Positions 13,186 to 30,794 of a stretch of 35,011 nt of DNA are shown piece after piece (position 1 is the first letter of the stretch; each line of letters opens with the position of its first letter). The DNA comes from Balneolaceae bacterium. Lineage in GTDB: Bacteria; Bacteroidota; Rhodothermia; Balneolales; Balneolaceae. The translations under genes were made by a program, and so were the position numbers. The notes beneath the pieces were generated by a model. It saw only the letters and a program-made list of their open reading frames with translations, made no database searches and was not told the origin of the DNA. Location of the stretch: positions 1 to 35,011 of the forward strand of contig REDS01000084.1 of the NCBI GenBank assembly GCA_007693395.1, written 5' to 3'.

Positions 13186-13211
13186 AGTTATTTCGATTTA
13201 TTCCAGAGTAG

Positions 13212-13227
13212 AGCAACCTCAATGCCA
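13212..13227 (-). promoter_or_regulatory. Candidate sigma-54 (-24/-12) promoter for hsp20-dnaK
   Basis: Read on the - strand, TGGCAT-TGAGG-TTGCT matches 15 of 16 positions of TGGCAYRN4TTGCW, including the essential GG and GC dinucleotides at the right spacing. Transcription would start near 13201, about 15 bases before the hsp20 ATG. No better promoter (TAnnTTTG or sigma-70) is visible in the 122-bp gap. Confidence 0.45.
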
Positions 13228-13232
13228 ATAAT

Positions 13233-13251
13233 GTGAAGCTTACCCCTTCAC
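13233..13251. promoter_or_regulatory. GTGAAG/CTTCAC dyad upstream of the hsp20 promoter
   Basis: GTGAAG and CTTCAC form perfect 6-bp arms with a 7-base spacer, ending 6 bases upstream of the sigma-54-like box. Enhancer-binding activators normally bind farther upstream, so this could instead be a repressor site or chance. Confidence 0.3.
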
Positions 13252-13307
13252 TGACGTATTGACATAGATGAAATTAAGAATTGCGGACAGATGCCAGATT
13301 TGCGGAG

Positions 13308-29751: not shown

Positions 29752-30720
29752 TCAGGCATCTGACTTCGGGGCAGCTTTTTCCCACTCACCCATAGCGGCA
29801 TACTTTTCGATACGCTGGTCAACGAGTTTTGCCGGCTTCATTTTTTTGAGCCGTTTGAGGCTTTTCAGGATTTGATCTTTCACTGCCTGGGCCGATTTTT
29901 TATGATTGCGATGCGCCCCTCCAAGTGGCTCTGCAATTACACCGTCAATCACTTTTAGCTCCAGCAGATCTTTAGCTGTGAGTTTCAGCGCGGATGCAGC
30001 CTGTTCTTTATACTCCCATGTTTTCCAGAGAATGGATGAACACGATTCGGGCGAAATTACGGAGTACCAGGTATTTTCCATCATGTAGAGTTCGTTACCC
30101 ATCCCGATACCAATTGCCCCGCCGCTCGCACCTTCACCAATAACGATACTTATAATTGGCACCTCCAGCACGGCCATCAACTTAAGATTTCTGGCAATGG
30201 CTTCTGCCTGGCCACGCTCTTCTGCTTCCAGGCCGGGAAAAGCGCCTGGGGTATCGAGCAATGTTACAACGGGGATATTAAACTTTTCAGCCATTTTCAT
30301 CAGTCTGTACGCTTTTCGGTAACCCTCGGGATTGGCCATTCCAAAATTTCTGTACTGTCTCGATTTAGTATCCCGCCCTTTCTGATGGCCGATAATCATT
30401 ACCGACTCCCCATCAATTGTTGCAAGGCCGCCAACCATCGCTTTATCATCCGCGTGGTATCTGTCTCCATGAAGCTCAATGAAATCTTCCGTCATCAGAT
30501 CGATATAATCCAGCGTGTAAGGCCGTTCGGGATGGCGCGCAAGCTGTACCCGCTGCCATCGTGTTAAGTTAGTGAAGATAGATTCACGCAGCTGGTCAGC
30601 TTTTTCTCTGAGGCGGTCAATTTCCGGCTTTAATACTTCATCGCCGAGCGAGAGGGCATTCAGCTCTTCAATTTTTTTCTCTAACTCTTCAATTGGCTGT
30701 TCAAAATCGAGATATTGCAT
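29752..30720 (-). CDS. accA: Acetyl-CoA carboxylase carboxyltransferase subunit alpha
   Basis: Carboxyltransferase alpha subunit that, with AccD, transfers CO2 from biotin to acetyl-CoA to make malonyl-CoA for fatty-acid synthesis. It has 322 residues. The N-terminal helical region is [20 protein letters not shown]. Core motifs are [73 protein letters not shown] and [22 protein letters not shown]. accD, accB and accC are not in the window. It lies 74 bases after gldC, with an AT-rich spacer that could hold its own promoter. Confidence 0.97.
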
Positions 30721-30794
30721 GGTACTGGTTTTGCTAATTGCAGGTTTTTGTTTTTAATATAACAACAAATCACTTTGTATTGCTAAAGCTTCTC

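Follow-up and report, generated by a model that had tools for sequence, protein, structure and literature searches.

A conserved, probable sigma-54 promoter upstream of the hsp20-dnaK operon in Balneolaceae

The window, the whole 35,011-nucleotide stretch of DNA that was analyzed, is contig C6 of a Balneolaceae genome assembled in 227 contigs (3.56 Mb, 98% complete). On its minus strand, aroA (14594-13308) is followed by a gap of 122 bases and then by hsp20, dnaK, and tsaD. The hsp20 gene (13185-12754) encodes a 143-aa protein matching PF00011 (4.6e-21), and dnaK (12703-10778; 641 aa; PF00012, 2e-270) begins 50 bases past it on the same strand. Motif matching and conservation place a sigma-54-type -24/-12 box, TTGGCAT-N5-TTGCT, within the gap at 13212-13228 of the minus strand. 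The core of the box, TGGCATTGAGGTTGCT (TGGCAT-N5-TTGCT; 13227-13212), differs by one mismatch from TGGCAC-N5-TTGCW, and its GG (13226-13225) and GC (13214-13213) have the -24/-12 spacing. The box, its spacing, and its location in the hsp20 gap had been reported by a first-pass annotation of this DNA and were confirmed. The same annotation set the box about 15 bases before a "distance limit", a garbled wording; sigma-54 geometry predicts a transcription start near 13201 on the minus strand, 12 bases past the C of the -12 element (C13213), which would leave hsp20 a leader of ~16 bases. Its observation that CIRCE and TAnnTTTG elements are missing was reproduced. TAnnTTTG, the Bacteroidota sigma-A -7 element as written in that annotation, is absent from the 122-base gap, and no CIRCE of at least 15/18 bases was found within 300 bases before hsp20 in 32/32 Balneolaceae genomes, including the source genome. 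The minus strand of the gap also contains no sigma-70-like match.

The exact pattern TGGCAY-N5-TTGCW has a single match in the window, compared with a mean of 0.125 in 40 dinucleotide shuffles. Allowing one mismatch to TGGCAC raises the counts to three in the window and an average of 1.75 in the shuffles, so the earlier estimate of far fewer than one chance match per window is valid for the exact form only. One of the one-mismatch matches, TGGTACTGGTTTTGCT (30720-30735, plus strand), lies amid minus-strand ORFs with no plus-strand gene after it and is probably a chance occurrence. Across the genome, 13 exact matches were found versus 2 for a reversed-pattern control; 8 are within ORFs and 5 precede genes, namely hsp20-dnaK, a DnaJ-like gene, grpE-dnaJ, a WecG-like gene, and a SecA-like gene. 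The last two genes were named by eye only; their boxes are located 90 bases before the WecG/TagA-like gene (L049, 1121-1136) and 115 bases before the SecA-like gene (L050, 1501-1516). At the level of sequence, the window by itself is weak to modest evidence for the box, and conservation settles the matter.

The upstream regions of 30 Balneolaceae Hsp20 orthologues, source genome included, were aligned. The ten core bases (TTGGCA and TTGC) are invariant in 30/30 promoters, and mean identity is 1.00 in the box core and 0.98 in an upstream element (TGTCAATACGTCAG, described below), against 0.44 in the spacer and 0.58 in the leader. A dnaK motif follows the box by 520-660 bp in 30/30 relatives. 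Using a scoring rule in which GG and GC were obligatory and at least 10/12 positions had to agree, a box was found before hsp20-dnaK in 32/32 Balneolaceae; L065, which has no dnaK after its hsp20, was left out of these counts. The GG and GC dinucleotides, which the first-pass annotation had proposed to follow in relatives, are therefore retained throughout both sets. A wider set of 80 loci from a named collection comprised 64 loci titled mostly Balneolaceae, Balneolales, or their genera (L073-L136) and 16 more distant loci (L137-L152); five of the former (L086, L091, L114, L126, and L131), whose titles differ or are broader, were grouped by similarity. The closest Hsp20 in this collection, 97% identical, comes from a Balneolaceae metagenome assembly. 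Scores of 12/12 were obtained for 61 of the 64, the remainder being L135 (11), L131 (9), and L136 (0), and for 0/16 of the more distant loci. The hsp20 boxes of families f2 and f4-g18 are degenerate.

Boxes also precede other chaperone operons. A scored box was present before grpE-dnaJ in 30/32 Balneolaceae genomes and before groES in 29/30, counts that exclude genomes with no match or no upstream DNA; the reverse-strand control over all scored regions gave 3/149. The grpE miss in G003 reflects a contig with only 48 bases of upstream sequence, and in G028 the grpE and groES boxes end in GT, not GC. In the source genome, the grpE and groES boxes are at -62 and -105, counted from where the sequence match begins, and the Flavobacterium-type pattern of boxes before dnaK, grpE-dnaJ, and groESL is found there. 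For a cbpA-like dnaJ, 21 loci were examined and all 8 in which the ORF was found have a box. A further cluster on contig C96 (L071, 2134-5426) contains a second hsp20, a DegP-like protease gene, and a DnaJ-like gene in a row, with sigma-54-like boxes at both chaperone genes (TGGCATTTCAATTGCG upstream of the likely start of the second hsp20) and a full activator gene ~16 kb away.

At sigma-54 promoters, ATP hydrolysis by an AAA+ activator is needed to release the polymerase from a waiting closed complex. The first-pass annotation had suggested a search for rpoN; the source genome encodes it in an uninterrupted 502-aa ORF (PF04552, 4.4e-57), and rpoN was detected in 53/58 relatives, with no match in the other five. 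G031 (98% complete) has no rpoN match and three sigma-54-like boxes before chaperone operons (L231, L055, and L259); its rpoN may fall in an assembly gap. Six PF00158 matches were found in the source genome, and two of these represent full activators. The first, a 428-aa protein encoded on contig C150, contains GSFTGA (L183), an AAA+ domain at its extreme N terminus, and a Fis-type HTH; receiver and ligand domains are absent, and lptE is the next gene. The second is an orphan NtrX-like response regulator of 459 aa encoded on contig C96, with receiver, AAA+, and HTH_8 domains and a GAFTGA loop (L032). Counterparts of the sensor-less protein (60% identity or more across at least 300 residues) occur in 51/58 genomes, and G025 carries a 120-aa end piece (91%); among the 58 genomes examined, it is missing from G008, G026, G044, G047, G050, and G051. 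A DNA-reading helix of the form VSERTLYRKLDQY or ISERTLYRKLDQY is present at 30/30 of its loci and an lptE-like neighbor at 28/30. Autoregulation of this gene through a sigma-54 box of its own was considered and rejected, with no upstream score of 10 or more at 30/30 loci. G051 also contributes one of two HrcA-bearing loci of family f4, genus g18 (L057 and L058), in which the hsp20 box lacks the -12 GC and the upstream element is kept.

The sensor-less protein is, by a modest preference, the likelier activator of the chaperone promoters because it carries no sensor itself, because its DNA-reading helix is nearly constant, and because Flavobacterium psychrophilum has a regulator-lptE pair near groESL that appears to be orthologous to the activator-lptE pair. 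With neither a receiver nor a ligand domain, it would need to be held under control by a protein partner, much as PspA controls PspF. The orphan response regulator is a serious rival. If it were the activator of the same sigma-54 promoter, a phosphorelay would set chaperone expression, and its domain composition and the location of its gene near the chaperone cluster on C96 fit such a role. In addition, G008 (97% complete) lacks the sensor-less protein, yet its three boxes are intact and it encodes a 457-aa activator match at 49% identity. However, no kinase gene was seen beside the regulator in L032, and the conserved linkage of the competing activator with lptE, together with the F. psychrophilum pair near groESL, speaks for the sensor-less protein; control by the NtrX-like regulator is possible but on balance improbable.

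The upstream element TGTCAATACGTCAG (13251-13264, minus strand) has the shape TGNC-N5-GNCA, an imperfect inverted repeat, and spans about -63 to -50 from the predicted start. Its first base is 36 bases before TTGG in L002 and most Balneolaceae and 34-36 bases in several other families; variants at 35, 47, and 25 bases and one at 19 were found, and at one locus the best match is 67 bases before TTGG. The 11-12-base steps in this spacing preserve helical phase. In L029 and L031 the element is doubled in tandem with a 12-base step (TGACAATACGTC-CGTCAATACGTC). No exact second copy exists in the source genome (the 13-mer is unique at 0 mismatches), and the single one-mismatch site is below the reversed-pattern control. 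The weight matrix finds weak copies before grpE and groES; matching shuffles numbered 0/200 for each, an excess that rests on related, non-independent sequences. Reversed half-sites of the element also occur at similar distances at grpE. A third, weaker conserved stretch, TGGCATCTGTC (13286-13296, minus strand), was seen by eye in alignments; it reads TGGCATCAGGTCACA in many relatives, is degenerate in the source species, and is a possible second site. From its conservation, TGTCAATACGTCAG may be the site at which the activator binds.

A different role for TGTCAATACGTCAG was weighed, in which the sigma-54 promoter stands but the element is the operator of an unrelated regulator, with the activator acting elsewhere or from solution. 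Enhancers are usually further upstream than about -56, and a near-fixed spacing (36, 35, or 47 bases, with a few at 25 or 19) would be odd for an enhancer that acts by looping; the lack of an exact second copy in the genome also favors this reading. Nevertheless, shifts of 11-12 bases that keep helical phase are expected of a protein that contacts the polymerase, and the reversed half-sites at grpE argue against an unrelated operator. This assignment is considered unlikely, and TGTCAATACGTCAG is carried forward as a candidate activator site.

It is very improbable that the box is a chance consensus match and that hsp20-dnaK is transcribed from a sigma-A promoter or from the promoter of aroA. 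The number of one-mismatch matches expected per window and the position of aroA upstream of hsp20 on the same strand would allow this, but it conflicts with the family-wide invariance of the box amid a diverged spacer, with the like boxes before grpE and groES, and with the lack of TAnnTTTG and minus-strand sigma-70-like matches in the gap. A chance match was rejected on the invariance and the scored boxes in Balneolaceae.

The distribution of the repressor HrcA was compared with that of the boxes. No hrcA match was found in the source genome, and HrcA (PF01628) was detected in 15/58 genomes, comprising 0/35 Balneolaceae and 15/23 other genomes of the order. The best CIRCE score at groES is 11/18 in the source genome and 9-11 of 18 across Balneolaceae, versus 15-17/18 in HrcA-positive relatives. 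Among HrcA-positive genomes, groES has a CIRCE (at least 15/18) in 14/14 and a box in 0/14, and grpE has a box in 0/15; in several, an HrcA-like C terminus runs into grpE, as judged by eye from the sequence. Three HrcA-positive genomes of family f5 retain a box at hsp20-dnaK, which suggests that this box may predate the loss of HrcA. Genus g11 of family f4, without HrcA, has boxes at grpE (5/6) and hsp20 (5/6) and none at groES (0/4), and both HrcA and a scored box are lacking in G046 and G055. These cases run counter to a clean rule of HrcA or box, and the counts are not independent events because the genomes are related. Outside Balneolota, a phylum-wide groES sample (71 loci, against 108 genomes with a match; L361, L363, and L365 were dropped for want of a groES start) showed mostly CIRCE; a box score of 12 was obtained in one non-Balneolaceae genome (G058), and scores of 10-11 in G108, G130, G158, and G074. 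Control of the chaperones by HrcA/CIRCE or RpoH, as in model bacteria, would find a precedent in the HrcA and CIRCE of neighboring families, but with HrcA undetected in the source genome and 34 other Balneolaceae and groES CIRCE scores this low it is scarcely credible, and HrcA/CIRCE control was rejected for the source genome. Balneolaceae seem to have lost HrcA.

Collectively, the comparative data indicate that the box is very probably the promoter of the hsp20-dnaK operon, used by sigma-54 polymerase. RpoN-polymerase would read the box and wait in a closed complex at hsp20-dnaK until an AAA+ activator, perhaps bound at TGTCAATACGTCAG, hydrolyzes ATP and transcription follows. The main chaperones of Balneolaceae could then form one activator-driven regulon that replaces HrcA/CIRCE repression. 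In its most complete form, the proposal is that HrcA was lost and that hsp20-dnaK, grpE-dnaJ, groESL, and the cbpA-like gene came under one sigma-54 circuit, in which the sensor-less AAA+ activator is restrained by free chaperone and bound to the close, helically phased short palindrome. This full scheme is speculative and, taken as a whole, doubtful; if true, an entire heat-shock regulon was turned from repression to ATP-driven activation. The first-pass annotation had proposed that an activator ATPase takes the place of HrcA here, and the comparison, with two full activators present and HrcA not found, supports it; that annotation identified the box correctly and, so far as the evidence goes, read its meaning correctly too. 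Chaperone regulation in HrcA-less Bacteroidota-like bacteria is poorly worked out in the literature found. The window box is one clear instance, from a family of salt-loving bacteria, and the account is testable, with a sigma factor, two candidate activators, and one candidate binding site.

In Escherichia coli, the small heat-shock protein gene ibpB also has a sigma-54 promoter; there it is secondary to sigma-32, the main factor. The nearest parallel is F. psychrophilum, a fish pathogen of the Flavobacteriaceae and not a member of Balneolota. As described in the available text of PMC9723704, the 5' ends mapped there for groESL, lon, dnaK, grpE-dnaJ, htpG, and clpB carry sigma-54 motifs. These genes are induced on blood agar and partly by osmotic stress, plasma exposure, and freshwater, and heat is not named as an inducer in that text (PMC9723704). 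By locus tags, the regulator-lptE pair (THC0290_0733-0732) is near groES-groEL (0729-0728) (PMC9723704). The SM4 promoters of F. psychrophilum resemble those described here in relying on a single sigma-54 and a small number of activators (three PF00158 proteins in F. psychrophilum) and in the regulator-lptE pair; unlike here, the available text lists no hsp20 before dnaK and mentions neither HrcA/CIRCE nor an upstream element, and the promoter mutagenesis it describes concerned a gliding operon and not chaperones (PMC9723704). A 2025 survey, in the portion available, predicts GroEL, GroES, IbpA, GrpE, DnaJ, and DnaK to be under sigma-54 in Bacteroidota and Planctomycetota, with enrichment given at class level only and neither "Balneol" nor "Rhodotherm" in its main text (PMC12316311). 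The accessible text of PMC3162934 contains no chaperone case in Bacteroidetes, and a literature search found no publication describing chaperones under sigma-54 in Balneolota. This kind of control is thus already known, from the F. psychrophilum mapping (PMC9723704) and the Bacteroidota prediction (PMC12316311), as far as those texts extend. What appears to be new from the genome comparison, and was not found in the literature search, is the Balneolota member, the hsp20-dnaK operon, the exclusion between HrcA/CIRCE and sigma-54, and the phased element. The HrcA/CIRCE system has the same targets, groESL and (hrcA-)grpE-dnaJ, but works by a repressor and an inverted repeat, and it is present in neighboring families and not in Balneolaceae. 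Since neighboring families of one order show both states, HrcA/CIRCE or sigma-54, the swap of a stress circuit is open to direct test.
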